Shown: one piece after another, positions 1,254-8,746 of the stretch
Numbering within the stretch: the first letter of the stretch is position 1
Layout of the letters: each line of letters begins with the position of its first letter
Source: Haloplanus vescus
GTDB lineage: Archaea; Halobacteriota; Halobacteria; Halobacteriales; Haloferacaceae
Assembly: GCF_900107665.1 (NCBI RefSeq)
Contig: NZ_FNQT01000001.1
Location: 1,156,398 to 1,220,397, forward strand
Length of the DNA stretch: 64,000 bases
Direction of reading: 5' to 3'
Made by a program: the position numbers and the translations under genes
Notes under the pieces: model-generated
What the model saw: only the letters and a program-made list of their open reading frames with translations
What the model was told of the DNA's origin: nothing
Databases searched by the model: none

Positions 1254-2648
1254 CTATGAAACAGATTCTCGAAGTTGGCTCAGTTCGTTTTCAGTCGGGA
1301 ATTTTCGCTGTCGACCGCACTCAGTACACTTGTAATTGTGAACAGTACGGTCCGTAAGCGTCCGCTGACCGTTCTTCACGACGTCGCCACCACAGTCCAT
1401 GCAGTGCAACTGCGCCATCTCACACGAATCGACGACGGGCTCAAGTCCAAACTCGGCCACCACATCTTCGAGACCATCTGGACTATCCGACTCACCGGAA
1501 TCTGTCGAATACCGTTCCTGGATTACCTCGATTTTCTTTTGAACGCGCTCGAAGAGTTCCTCCTCAACGATCTGCAGATCGCTATCCTCGACGAAGACAC
1601 GCTCACCCGTTTCGGGATGCTCGGCATCAATTCCAGGCTTGCCGATATATACCCGGTTTTGGAGGAGTCGCTTCAGAGCGTGTGAACTCGAGGGAGAGTA
1701 GCCCGCAACACGGGCCTCCGTCGCACTGTACGCGCCCTGGATATCGACCTCAAGAAACGTCTCAAAGAGCCGGAGAACAGTTTCGACCTCGGACGAATCA
1801 ACTGCCAACCAATCGTCGTCCACGTACTGGTAGCCAAGAGGTGCGGAACTGTAGAACGCAGACCAATTCTTCCGACTGAATTGCTCAATCCGTCCCATCC
1901 GAGCGCGTCGTGCGCGGGTTTCGTTCGATCGTTGTGACATCAACGTATCGAGCACTATAGGCACAAGATCCTCGAACTTCGAGACATCCAATTCACCCGA
2001 TTCGGCTGTGATAACTCGCACACCACACTGGGTCCGCAACTCGTGGAGGTAGTAGGTCGTCTCTGCGGCAGTCCGACCGACCCGATCAATAGCGTCGACG
2101 AGCACATATTCAATCTCATCCTGGCACGCAAGGCGTCGTACCTTCCGTATCCCTGGACGGTCGAAGTTCGTCCCCGTTTCCCCCGCATCTTTGATTGGCT
2201 TCGCGACGAGGTTGATGTCGCGCTCCTCGGCGATCCGGCGAAGGTTCTCTTCCTGTTCGCGAAGACTGTGCCCGTCTTCTGCCTGCCGCTGGCTACTTAC
2301 TCGCGCATAGATGACTCCCCGCGGTTGCCCGCCGTCTGTCTCGGTGGCGCTAGAATCAGTATCTGATTCTGTATCCGGGGACGTCGACTCCTCGTCACCG
2401 TCGTCGAGGAATGTGGTGAGGTCATTCTGGGCGGCCAGCCCCACAAAGGCCAGCACGCTCGCCAAGACCAGATATGATTGAACTGCCTCAGGCGTGAAGC
2501 CGTCTGGTGCGAACGCGATTTTCACCGGATATGATTGAACTGCTTCAATCGTTCTCACGGCGAGATATGATTGAAGGTCACCCACCGACACCACCTCCAG
2601 AGGGTCGCGCAACGATGTATGATTGAGGCGCGTCACGCCGATTGCCAA
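1254..2648 (-). CDS. Large serine recombinase
   Basis: This is a site-specific serine recombinase that would cut and rejoin DNA through a 5'-phosphoserine. The resolvase domain starts near residue 110 with GVIYARVSSQRQ; the Ser after Arg-Val (about S118) is the expected nucleophile. A recombinase domain follows at about 245-340, and a C-terminal zinc ribbon with CMDCGG and CTECGR at about 415-450. The N-terminal 105 residues are doubtful. Their first part reads through the motif array at 2472-2733, which creates repeated QSY tripeptides, and the rest is a Ser/Asp/Thr linker. The real start may be an internal GTG or TTG near 2440-2470. It is divergent from the tyrosine-recombinase operon at 2994 and shares the intervening control region. 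Family call is firm; element identity and start are not. Confidence 0.85.
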   Translation of the reverse strand: MAIGVTRLNHTSLRDPLEVVSVGDLQSYLAVRTIEAVQSYPVKIAFAPDGFTPEAVQSYLVLASVLAFVGLAAQNDLTTFLDDGDEESTSPDTESDTDSSATETDGGQPRGVIYARVSSQRQAEDGHSLREQEENLRRIAEERDINLVAKPIKDAGETGTNFDRPGIRKVRRLACQDEIEYVLVDAIDRVGRTAAETTYYLHELRTQCGVRVITAESGELDVSKFEDLVPIVLDTLMSQRSNETRARRARMGRIEQFSRKNWSAFYSSAPLGYQYVDDDWLAVDSSEVETVLRLFETFLEVDIQGAYSATEARVAGYSPSSSHALKRLLQNRVYIGKPGIDAEHPETGERVFVEDSDLQIVEEELFERVQKKIEVIQERYSTDSGESDSPDGLEDVVAEFGLEPVVDSCEMAQLHCMDCGGDVVKNGQRTLTDRTVHNYKCTECGRQRKFPTENELSQLRESVS

Positions 2649-2733
2649 GTAAATATGATTGACGTACGCCTCGCGAGCCCTCCGTCGACGGAGATGACGT
2701 GGCTCGCCACTCGGTCAGATATGATTGAATTGC
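2472..2733. repeat. Array of six ATATGATTGA motifs
   Basis: Six same-orientation copies of (A/G)TATGATTGA start at 2472, 2529, 2565, 2617, 2653 and 2719. Four continue with a further A, and copies 1, 2 and 6 extend to GAACTGC or GAATTGC. Start-to-start distances are 57, 36, 52, 36 and 66 bp. The intervening DNA is unrelated and variable in length, unlike CRISPR spacers. The array covers the 5' end of the serine recombinase frame and its upstream region. Iteron-like binding sites for a recombinase, regulator or replication protein are the simplest reading. Confidence 0.75.
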
Positions 2734-2783
2734 GCCCTTGATGTCCCGCGAATAGCGGTGTACATTGAAGGGGGTACTTGCTC

Positions 2784-2866
2784 TCTGTACAGAGTAGATA
2801 TAGCAAGGTATGATGTGGGCAGCCAAGGCTGTCCACATCATAGATCGGTTAAGTACTCTGTACAGA
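2784..2866. repeat. Two-level dyad symmetry element
   Basis: TCTGTACAGAGTA (2784-2796) recurs as its exact inverse at 2854-2866. Both copies contain the palindrome TCTGTACAGA. Between them is a long hairpin: 2809-2824 pairs with 2827-2842, broken only by one G/T position, with AA at the centre. Inner and outer repeats share the same centre within half a base (about 2825). It lies between divergent recombinase genes. A recombination site, replication origin or shared operator would all fit. Confidence 0.75.
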
Positions 2867-2944
2867 ATACTACTCTCGGCCAGCTTGCAATCGGTACGGG
2901 AGTTGGGTTCCGTCATGTCCTATCAAGGCTTGGCCCCGCCTTGG

Positions 2945-2993: not shown

Positions 2994-3212
2994 ATGACGG
3001 TGTCTGAGGAGAATCTCAGCCCGTCAGAGGACACGCGCCGTGCCGAACTCTCCACCCACGACGACGACACGCTCGGCGCATGCCTCTACCTCACGCCTGA
3101 GGACCTCCGCGACCTCGACGTCGACCCCGAGACTGCGGACGCCATCGAGTTCCACGTCGACGATACGGGACGACTCGTCGTCGACGCCATCGACACGGAG
3201 GGTGACAGATGA
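2994..3212 (+). CDS. Small acidic protein, first gene of integrase operon
   Basis: This 72-aa protein has a disordered acidic N-terminus (about 1-27) and a compact C-terminal half with ACLYLTPEDLRDLDVD followed by a beta-like IEFHVDDTGRLVVDAI stretch. That pattern resembles a SpoVT/AbrB-type swapped-hairpin DNA-binding domain, but the match is by eye only. The ATG has a strong ribosome site. The stop overlaps the next start as ATGA at 3209-3212, so translation is probably coupled. As the first gene behind an inverted-repeat operator it is a candidate autoregulator or recombination directionality factor. Confidence in the gene is good; confidence in the function is low. Confidence 0.65.
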   Translation: MTVSEENLSPSEDTRRAELSTHDDDTLGACLYLTPEDLRDLDVDPETADAIEFHVDDTGRLVVDAIDTEGDR

Positions 3213-3286
3213 GCCGCCGACACACGCAACCGGCGATTGATTTTGGAACCATCCAGCGACCGGCACCTGCACAGACCAATGCCTGA
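3209..3286 (+). CDS. Micro-ORF, 25 aa, coupled within integrase operon
   Basis: ATG at 3209 overlaps the stop of the preceding gene (ATGA), and the TGA at 3284-3286 lies beyond the ATG of the next gene at 3279. The peptide is MSRRHTQPAIDFGTIQRPAP plus five residues. It fills the only gap between two coupled genes, which suggests that it keeps ribosomes moving through the operon or is a tiny accessory protein. No family can be assigned to something this short. Confidence 0.45.
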   Translation: MSRRHTQPAIDFGTIQRPAPAQTNA

Positions 3287-3836
3287 TATCAGCGCAGACA
3301 AACAGATGGCAGCGGCGTATCCTCCGGAGGCGCTCTATGAGTCGTGGAGCGACCACGCGGACGAACTCGATATGCCAATCAGCCAGTTCATCATCGAGAT
3401 GGTCGAGGCAGGGCGCAAGCAGATCGACTTGGAGGAATACGCGGCAGACTCGATTCGGGAACTGCGCGACCAGCGTGACGACCTCCGAAACGAAGTGCGT
3501 CGCCAGCGCGCCCGCGTCGAAGAACTGGAACGCCAGCTGGACCGGACGGCGCGCACGGATATCGTCGCGTTCATCGAGGAAAATCCAGGGGCTACGACGC
3601 CCGAAATCGTCCAACACGCCGCGGACACAGTTCCCGGCCGAACCATTGGCCTACTCGATGCACTCGATGGGCGCTCGCTGCGAGAACGTGACGGGCAGTA
3701 CTACGTCCTCGACGAGCCCGAGAGTAGTGATTCGGAGAGTGATACTGACGATTCTGACGCCAACGCCGAAGACGACCCCAAGGCATCGACGAGGACCGAC
3801 ACCACCGAACTCACCGACCAGGAGGCCACCAAATGA
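3279..3836 (+). CDS. Coiled-coil DNA-binding-like accessory protein
   Basis: The 185-aa protein starts at ATG 3279 inside the end of the micro-ORF; an in-frame ATT/ATG-free extension upstream is not needed. Residues about 13-45 (YPPEALYESW to IIEMVEAGRKQ) resemble a ribbon-helix-helix-like or short helical DNA-binding unit. Residues about 50-90 are a clear coiled coil rich in Arg/Glu/Leu. Residues about 93-140 look like a winged helix ending in RERDGQYYVLDE. The tail (about 142-185) is Ser/Asp/Glu-rich and disordered. The stop overlaps the next ATG (3833-3836). In this position it is likely an accessory or regulatory factor for the downstream recombinase; that is inference from the operon. 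Confidence 0.65.
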   Translation: MPDISADKQMAAAYPPEALYESWSDHADELDMPISQFIIEMVEAGRKQIDLEEYAADSIRELRDQRDDLRNEVRRQRARVEELERQLDRTARTDIVAFIEENPGATTPEIVQHAADTVPGRTIGLLDALDGRSLRERDGQYYVLDEPESSDSESDTDDSDANAEDDPKASTRTDTTELTDQEATK

Positions 3837-4321
3837 GCCGACGCAAGGGCATCCATCCCGAACAGTACGCAGGAGTCTACCAGCGATACGACGAGATTCC
3901 CGAACGATATCGACTCGAAACCTACGCCTCGCAGTACGAGGGCGAAGATACGTGGCAGGAGTACGTCGACGACGTCCTCGTGCCCACGCACGAGCCGGTG
4001 AGCAATTCGATGCAGAAGAGCATCAGACTCGCTGGTGAGTCGTGGCGCGAACACATGGACAACAGAGAGCGCCATCACGCGCTTGCACGGCCCGTAGACG
4101 CGGAGGCGTGGTGTCGTGACCTGTTCGACGGCCGGTCGAAGAAAACGTGCTACGAGCACTACTTCGTCCGTATCTACCAGTTCTACGACCACATGGTGCA
4201 GACGAGCGGGCACCCACACGTCTACAATCCGCTACTACTCGCGGCTATCGAGCATGACTACGCCGAACAGGTCTGGCGGTATCGCATCGAGAATCGCCCG
4301 GAGGTGGTCGACCGTGAGTAA
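3833..4321 (+). CDS. Stand-alone core-binding-domain protein
   Basis: The 162-aa protein resembles the N-terminal SAM-like core-binding domain of a tyrosine recombinase, with segments such as SIRLAGESWREHM and TCYEHYFVRIYQFYDHM and an NP-L-L-L ending typical of the end of that domain. No catalytic domain follows. The same kind of segment (IKVYRLTYRQWREHM) occurs inside the next protein, so the two look like relatives. Start and stop overlap both neighbours (ATGA upstream, an 8-base overlap downstream). It could bind the attachment site alongside the full recombinase or modulate it. The domain call is by eye; the role is inferred. Confidence 0.65.
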   Translation: MSRRKGIHPEQYAGVYQRYDEIPERYRLETYASQYEGEDTWQEYVDDVLVPTHEPVSNSMQKSIRLAGESWREHMDNRERHHALARPVDAEAWCRDLFDGRSKKTCYEHYFVRIYQFYDHMVQTSGHPHVYNPLLLAAIEHDYAEQVWRYRIENRPEVVDRE

Positions 4322-5453
4322 CAATACCGACGACGCGGCCACGCCGCCGCAACGCGCCGAAATCAGGCAGACATTCGCGGATGCGTTCGACCGTTCGGCC
4401 GACCCACTCAAGGAGTTCAGCGACGACTCCTACGGGCTGTACGATCCGCTGGAGTACTTCATCGAAACGGCACTACAGAATCGAGAGTCGGTCAGTAGTG
4501 AGGAGACAATCAAGGTCTACCGGCTAACCTATCGGCAGTGGCGCGAGCACATGGCGTCGATGGACCGCCACTTCGCCTGTCCGAGTCCCGAACACGTCGC
4601 GTCGTTCATCGAGTGGCGTCGCGACGTCCACGGGAACGCCCGGAGTACTATTGCTGGGAAGTTGAATCGGCTCTCGCAGGCCTACCAACTCTGGCAGTCC
4701 GACGAGGCGTTCCCCCACCCGCCAGATTACAATCCGTTTGAACTGGCACAGGAGACGACCGACCTCGGAGAAAATCCGGACAAAGAGTTCCCGAATCTCT
4801 CCCTCGAGGAGTTACGAGAGGTGTTCAGCGGCATCGAGAACCTGAAGCGCCGAGCCGTAATCGGACTGCAGTTGAAACTCGGCGCTCGCGCTGGGGAGGT
4901 CTGTAACATTCGGATAGAGGACCTCGATATCGATCATAGTGAGTTGCAATCGCAGTATGACAAATTGGGGACGCACGCGGCTCTGGGAGAGCATTCGGAC
5001 GTGCTGTACATCCCGCATGATCGGGATGGGAACAAATCCTCGAACCCGCGGTTGCTTCCGGTCGATGATGAGCTGCGGTGGCTCTTACTCCGATATCTAC
5101 TGGTCCGACCAAACGTTGGTGAGCCATGGCTATTCCTCTCGGAGCGAACCTACACGCAGCTGCGTTCGAAGGGCGTGAACGACCTCTGGAAGCGCGAGTT
5201 CCATCCGGAGTACGCTGAGACTGAGGACACGCAGGCTATTACGAGTCACTTCGGTCGCCACTGGTTCAGTTCACACTGGCGACTGAATGTTGGTCTGGAT
5301 CGTGAGCACGTGCAGTATATGCGTGGAGATCGAGTTGCGCCGTTAGATGATTTCCCGGATGCAATCGACGACTATCTGCATCCGAATTACGCGCATATTG
5401 AGCGGCAGTATCGGGCGTCGATCTTCAAGTTACGTCTGGAGATGCAATACTAA
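4314..5453 (+). CDS. Tyrosine recombinase/integrase (XerC/D-like)
   Basis: This site-specific recombinase would act through a 3'-phosphotyrosine. The start is taken as GTG 4314, giving 379 aa; the frame is open further upstream but only as read-through of the previous gene. The core-binding domain is at about residues 50-150. The catalytic domain shows Arg I in GARAGEVCNIRIEDLD, the HFGRHW box (H-x-x-R-H) and a C-terminal Tyr in HPNYAHIERQY, where either nearby Tyr could be the nucleophile. It is the last gene of a five-gene operon with almost every junction overlapping. Haloarchaeal SNJ2-type integrases are known to need small proteins from the same operon, so this may be a relative with more parts. 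Confidence 0.88.
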   Translation: MSNNTDDAATPPQRAEIRQTFADAFDRSADPLKEFSDDSYGLYDPLEYFIETALQNRESVSSEETIKVYRLTYRQWREHMASMDRHFACPSPEHVASFIEWRRDVHGNARSTIAGKLNRLSQAYQLWQSDEAFPHPPDYNPFELAQETTDLGENPDKEFPNLSLEELREVFSGIENLKRRAVIGLQLKLGARAGEVCNIRIEDLDIDHSELQSQYDKLGTHAALGEHSDVLYIPHDRDGNKSSNPRLLPVDDELRWLLLRYLLVRPNVGEPWLFLSERTYTQLRSKGVNDLWKREFHPEYAETEDTQAITSHFGRHWFSSHWRLNVGLDREHVQYMRGDRVAPLDDFPDAIDDYLHPNYAHIERQYRASIFKLRLEMQY

Positions 5454-8665: not shown

Positions 8666-8746
8666 TTAGATGTAGGCGTTCATCAGCGTCGTCTTCCCAA
8701 CACCCGTCGGCCCGGAGAAGAAGACAATCCGATGGGCCTGGAAATA
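8666..8746 (-). pseudogene. Walker A remnant of a P-loop ATPase
   Basis: The minus strand reads YFQAHRIVFFSGPTGVGKTT then LMNAYI and stop, with another stop immediately upstream (TAA at 8747-8749). GPTGVGKTT is a textbook Walker A motif preceded by the expected hydrophobic strand, but there is no start codon and nothing of an ATPase on either side. It is therefore a fragment left by rearrangement. It sits at the junction between the AT-rich accessory block and the core chromosome. The parent family cannot be told from 26 residues. Confidence 0.55.

Follow-up and report, generated by a model that had tools for sequence, protein, structure and literature searches.

The internal resolution site of the Tn4430 recombinase TnpI combines a core of inverted motifs with direct accessory motifs next to the recombinase gene. 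A serine resolvase is encoded by the integrative island SGI1, with a res site upstream of its gene; this resolvase clears multimers of the island, and its res region is a common insertion point (PMC12217951). Sin binds two sites, of which site I is inverted and site II is arranged head to tail (PMC2428073). In archaea, the dif site has an 11-6-11 layout, and the serine recombinases seen in archaeal transposons have, according to a review, never been fully investigated (PMC8371274).

Here we describe a palindromic site of about 90 bases, present in single copy in the genomes of 24 salt-loving archaea. In each of them it lies at the start of the gene of a serine recombinase, termed serRec1, of a mobile element. 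To judge from its sequence, the site is probably where serRec1 binds, whether for cutting the DNA, for control of its own gene or for both. In the literature searched, no paper names this module, and the site is undescribed as far as our searches reach. The starting point was a stretch of 64,000 nucleotides from Haloplanus vescus, called the window throughout.

The dyad and its coding context

The initial annotation had noted 13-bp arms nested around 16-bp arms, and this dyad is real. The inner arms (2809-2824 and 2827-2842) are complementary at 15 of 16 positions with a 2-nt AA in the middle, and the outer arms (2784-2796 and 2854-2866) at 13 of 13. Both levels are centred near 2825 as had been claimed, but the centre is not a common one: the inner arms centre on 2825.5 and the outer arms on 2825.0, so the nesting is half a base off. 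A 34-bp palindrome with at least 15 of 17 pairs was found once in the window and in none of 30 simulated 64-kb sequences, and CTCTGTACAGA has no second occurrence within the window. The features of the region are as follows.

1254-2648, minus strand: serRec1, a large-serine-integrase-like recombinase, catalytic domain from about 2315
2473-2481, minus strand: extra half-site 6
2530-2538, minus strand: extra half-site 5, 36 bp from half-site 4
2566-2574, minus strand: extra half-site 4
2578-2916, minus strand: 112-aa open reading frame across the dyad, with the dyad in the phase of the relatives' serRec1 frame
2618-2626, minus strand: extra half-site 3, 36 bp from half-site 2
2654-2662, minus strand: extra half-site 2
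2720-2728, minus strand: extra half-site 1, TCAATCATA
2781-2870, minus strand: whole compound site, match to the covariance model R1
2785-2792, no strand: outer box CTGTACAG, about +37 from the core centre, on the serRec1 side
2809-2842, no strand: 34-bp core palindrome with an A/T-only (WW) centre and half-site TATGATGTGG..
2849-2855, minus strand: TACTTAA, TATA-like, on the upstream side between outer box and core
2858-2865, no strand: outer box CTGTACAG, about -36 from the core centre
2994-3212, plus strand: small divergent open reading frame, 72 aa, no family match
3279-3836, plus strand: operon protein, 185 aa, with homologues beside serRec1 in loci L065 and L050
3833-4321, plus strand: operon protein, 162 aa, with a homologue in L065 and no family match
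4314-5453, plus strand: tyrosine recombinase, Phage_integrase / XerA-like

The serRec1 protein has the Pfam domains Resolvase and Recombinase and matches integrases of the YokA/Bxb1/phiC31 type. The YokA match covers 334 profile positions, and among solved relatives those that match best over the full length are serine integrases, YokA being one. With a resolvase domain, a recombinase domain and a zinc ribbon in this order, serRec1 is assigned to the large serine recombinases, as judged from these matches and a predicted fold of moderate overall confidence (pTM 0.49). About half of the serRec1 N-termini carry a QxxLxxF motif (QNDLTTF, QSELTNF, QVELLDF, QSDLGAF) after a hydrophobic stretch and before the catalytic domain, for example at about 2415-2435 of the window (minus strand) and in L049, L051, L054 and L067; it resembles the PCNA-binding PIP box.

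In most loci serRec1 is followed by serRec2, which is short and convergent, a TFB-like protein and a Cas4-like nuclease. No Cas4-like gene was found near the window site. The window's own locus has, between serRec1 and serRec2 and just left of the window start (L048, 7764-9962), a gene for a 732-aa Piwi-domain protein (Pfam E 2.9e-7), possibly defence cargo of the element. In L055 (genome G084) the usual serRec2, TFB and Cas4-like genes are missing, and genes of 988, 457 and 662 aa, type I restriction-like by size and order, lie beside serRec1 at relative positions +1.6 to +7.9 kb. In L050 (G184) serRec1 is 38% identical and is followed by a homologue of the window's 199-aa operon protein; this locus lacks a dyad, and no relative of the tyrosine recombinase is nearby, nor is serRec2 or a TFB-like or Cas4-like gene.

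The dyad had been placed between divergent genes, and this layout was considered as the typical one. The idea was dropped after comparison of the relatives' loci, where in most cases the tyrosine recombinase gene is codirectional and the dyad follows it within the frame of serRec1. Ten serRec1 genes have this upstream codirectional layout; in them the frame is open through the dyad and the phase of the centre is always equal; the phase is also kept in L181-L184, which were found by R1 alone. In L056, L057, L058 and L148 the only start codons available to the catalytic domain lie within or before the dyad and none follows it, which places the site in the translated part of these four genes. The serRec1 start overlaps the stop of the tyrosine recombinase gene in most type-A loci. 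In L052, and likewise in L060 and L067, the dyad lies in a separate small open reading frame that overlaps the serRec1 start. The 2578-2916 frame of the window is out of frame with serRec1, the frame change falling between half-sites 3 and 4. The divergent intergenic layout of the window is thus a minority one and probably a decayed one, and the window copy itself looks decayed.

Conservation and symmetry of the site

In protein searches, 25 haloarchaeal genomes, that of Haloplanus vescus among them, turned out to encode serRec1, and the first eight relatives showed 30-40% identity to the window protein. A symmetric site of the same anatomy was present at the serRec1 5' end in 21 of the 25. 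The covariance model R1 was built from an alignment of 17 sites and returned one copy each in whole-genome searches; the window copy, which belongs to the training set, scored 73.2 bits and is the sole copy in its genome. Two genomes outside the model, G519 and G538, were matched at the expected place with E values of 1.8e-4 and 4e-4. A blind R1 scan of 392 haloarchaeal genomes of the order (cut-off E <= 0.01) gave 16 genomes with a match, 12 known and four new (G362, split over two contigs, G043, G011 and G034). All four new sites are at the start of a serRec1 gene, and no match away from serRec1 was observed in the 392 genomes. No convincing R1 match was obtained in the serRec1 genomes G184, G485, G478 and G377. 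Plasmid and phage records contained no near DNA relatives, and no viral contigs with the protein or an alignment were found. The search of related haloarchaeal elements that had been proposed as a check found the dyad conserved, in single copy and always at the serRec1 5' end; the lack of conservation that had been named as a refutation was not observed.

In the 17-sequence alignment, 18 of 18 pairs were changed on both sides. Covariation was 0.496, a value inflated because the training centres were picked by symmetry, compared with 0.184 for shuffled and 0.06-0.11 for slid-partner controls. L144, L148 and L181-L184, all found by R1, and L063, which lies outside the model, keep 10-14 of the 18 pairs. 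In a set of 24 copies, the symmetry is significant at offsets 2-4 (permutation p.002-.0055) and 9-18 from the centre, with none at 1 and 5-8, and 21 of the 24 have only A or T in the central dinucleotide. A hairpin had also been suggested for the dyad. Among the 78 non-Watson-Crick cells 11 are G-U pairs, about the number expected by chance, and no Rfam family was found near the site; an RNA hairpin was ruled out on these two grounds. Since G-U pairs are not enriched, the constraint acts on double-stranded DNA, and it is as DNA that the 34-bp palindrome covaries.

The outer inverted repeat of the initial annotation holds for the window itself; in the relatives it turned out to be no true inverted repeat but two direct copies of the self-palindromic CTGnnCAG, usually followed by a TTAAA or TATA-like box. 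These boxes, at about -36 and +36/37, form direct units spaced by 72-73 bp. As the most common distance, 73 bp, is not a multiple of three, the same motif falls in two frames, which argues for selection at the DNA level. The place of the window's TACTTAA is AT-rich in nearly all relatives.

The boxes at about ±36 differ in sequence from a second repeated motif, which had been overlooked. TATGATTGA occurs six times at 2473-2728, with 0.01 copies expected in the window, and the genome as a whole has 11 copies, these six included. It matches the half-site of the palindrome, and the ATCATA of its reverse complement is common to the palindrome arm. Between half-sites 3 and 4 the spacing is 52 and the reading frame shifts; every other spacing is a multiple of 3. 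Copies of ATCATA(C/T), all in the orientation of the right arm, were found downstream of the dyad in 8 of the 24 copies: six in L048, two in L052, three in L059, one each in L063 and L064, and two, three and three in L182, L183 and L184, three loci in whose discovery the motif played no part. Spacings of 24 and 36 bp are frequent. In L182-L184 the serine codon TCA is present in 8 of 8 half-sites, compared with 18% in the rest of these genes. The direct half-sites are confined to the TATGAT class, where most copies have them, and the copies with GATACG arms have zero extra half-sites.

Two chromosomal intergenic blocks beside a transducer gene (C1:252.7 kb; L003 1501-1562 and 1585-1695) recur at 2657-2719 and 883-993 of the window, where they flank serRec1 with order and orientation kept. 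In L003 they are separated by 22 bp with AATCATACC. One of them exactly spans the gap between half-sites 1 and 2 and ends at the half-sites. In sequence, this arrangement looks like past recombination at ATCATA motifs.

Direct repeats next to an AT-rich dyad could suggest a replication origin with iterons, and an MCM-like gene was seen by eye near the dyad in L182. This is highly improbable, as no conserved replication initiator lies beside the site, the iterons are missing in most copies and the site is within a recombinase reading frame. The site could also be an operator or promoter only, in which the recombinase or a small operon protein on the palindrome silences serRec1 and, where divergent, the tyrosine recombinase operon, and no strand exchange takes place. 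It would fit the single copy per genome, the TATA-like stretches at about -26 and +50, each with CTGnnCAG upstream, and the place of the window site between two units of divergent transcription. Recombinase sites typically combine binding and repression anyway. The location in the translated region of the four loci named above, the overlap with the tyrosine recombinase stop in most type-A loci, and a centre and symmetry profile that resemble a crossover site speak against this explanation, which we consider possible but rather improbable.

The recombinases and the integrated element

The divergence of the half-sites tracks serRec1 (r.45), serRec2 (.36) and the tyrosine recombinase (.57), while TFB (.06) and the Cas4-like protein (.04) are flat; part of this Mantel signal could arise from linkage alone. 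TFB adjoins serRec2, yet the half-site divergence does not track it. The site-class labels cluster on all trees, including those of TFB and the Cas4-like protein, so the label test alone does not name the binder. TFB, considered as reader of the palindrome, was rejected because divergence tracking is absent, although label clustering does not separate the proteins.

The higher correlation of the tyrosine recombinase, the usual neighbour, would agree with a core site of this enzyme with a 13-8-13 layout like lox, dif or the TnpI site; 34 bp is the length of lox, and the Tn4430 pattern of core and direct accessory motifs is similar. The symmetry profile points the other way: it is palindromic at offsets 2-4 but not at 5-8, opposite to what a tyrosine spacer shows. 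With its WW centre this suits a 2-bp serine overlap and not an asymmetric tyrosine spacer of 6-8 bp. Furthermore, the TATGAT class sits beside several unrelated tyrosine recombinase arrangements, the tyrosine recombinase is 4-6 kb away in L055 and L148, and the 18-kb locus L067 has no relative of the main tyrosine recombinase family; in these three loci the dyad is still with serRec1. A tyrosine core site is thus unlikely. Tyrosine recombinases of unrelated kinds or none, a constant serRec1 and a centre of the 2-bp type favour a serine recombinase as the reader. The proposal that the dyad is a binding or recombination site for the neighbouring recombinases is supported by its conservation, its covariation as DNA and its single copy at the serRec1 5' end.

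The elements form a haloarchaeal integrative family, 30-41 kb in size where mapped, with genes for tyrosine and serine recombinases and for TFB-like and Cas4-like proteins. The module's clearest complete carrier is the 37-kb element of G433 (C1:309827-346876; L058, L158), located at a tRNA-Arg(tcg), where the 3' end of the tRNA-Arg is directly repeated over 73 bp (96%) and forms both borders. Repeats of 15 bp in G089 and 17 bp in G235 enclose about 30 and 41 kb, respectively. The mapped borders are tRNA-Arg 3' ends, typical of tyrosine integrases, and the dyad is intact in all three integrated elements. These borders place the dyad within the element, so it was rejected as the chromosomal attachment site, and the idea that it marks the circular junction was not supported. 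A search for the ends of the window's own element found no borders, neither a tRNA-Arg nor a clear direct repeat. A 61-bp fragment with P-loop coding sequence (8670-8730), about 82-91% conserved in genomes of the genus and stray here, was rejected as an att core for want of a second copy and is probably a deletion scar.

The site might still be attP- or attB-like, with serRec1 as a serine integrase and a partner site elsewhere. The integrase matches of serRec1 would allow this, and attP usually adjoins the integrase gene. We regard it as very unlikely, since the site is whole and undivided in elements integrated at tRNA-Arg with direct repeats of 15-73 bp and has no second copy in the genomes.

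Our preferred reading, which we think has about an even chance of being right, is that the dyad is a cis-acting, res-like site at which the element's own serine recombinases cross over and are controlled. A dimer of serRec1, perhaps joined by serRec2, would bind the 34-bp core as the crossover site and cut the central 2 bp. Flanking boxes and direct half-sites may limit synapsis, either as accessory subsites or as sites for host factors, and where two sites are directly repeated, for example when the excised element has formed a dimer, they would then be resolved. Binding to the dyad would probably also control serRec1 expression, because the site lies at or inside the recombinase 5' end and over TATA-like boxes. 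Traits of a res-type site found here are the position beside a recombinase gene, one copy per element, the dyad core, the 2-bp centre and the symmetric arms. Several points count against the res-like reading: no product of recombination was observed at the dyad, serine integrases of the serRec1 architecture normally recombine two different sites, four serRec1 genomes gave no convincing R1 match, the extra direct half-sites are in the TATGAT class only, and the usual position within a reading frame is unusual for a res site. As a doubtful extension, the recombinase gene may carry its own crossover site in frame, so that exchange at the dyad swaps or severs its 5' end and the tyrosine recombinase operon driving it. 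If this were true, the module would be a self-rewiring switch and not a plain resolution system.

Comparison with known recombination sites

A defined site and a defined enzyme pair are now in hand for archaeal serine recombinases. The site specificity varies between species with the recombinases, so the binding code is open to direct test.

Among the known systems, the large serine integrases that act on attP, those of phiC31, Bxb1 and YokA, share the domain architecture of serRec1 and symmetric arms around a central dinucleotide. In contrast to their attP, the site described here stays whole in integrated elements and is not split into attL and attR, and integration takes place at tRNA-Arg 3' ends with direct repeats of the tyrosine-integrase type. 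The asymmetric 6-8-bp spacer of lox and dif is not seen, since offsets 2-4 are symmetric, and unlike for TnpI, a tyrosine recombinase, the symmetry of the centre fits serine enzymes. The res site of Sin likewise joins an inverted core to direct half-sites of the same motif; it differs from the present site, where 1-6 accessory half-sites with 24-66 bp spacing occur in one subclass only, the hosts are unrelated and the reaction is putative. With the res sites of the Tn3 family and SGI1 our site shares a compound structure upstream of a serine recombinase gene, a dyad core with a putative 2-bp crossover and the single copy, and with SGI1 the location on an integrative island. It is distinguished from them by a recombinase that is large-integrase-like and not a small resolvase, by its frequent position within the recombinase reading frame, by subsites II and III that are not visible as dyads, and by nearby genes for a second recombinase and for TFB-like and Cas4-like proteins. 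To the left of the dyad, variable genes recall the SGI1 res region as an insertion point, a likeness only.
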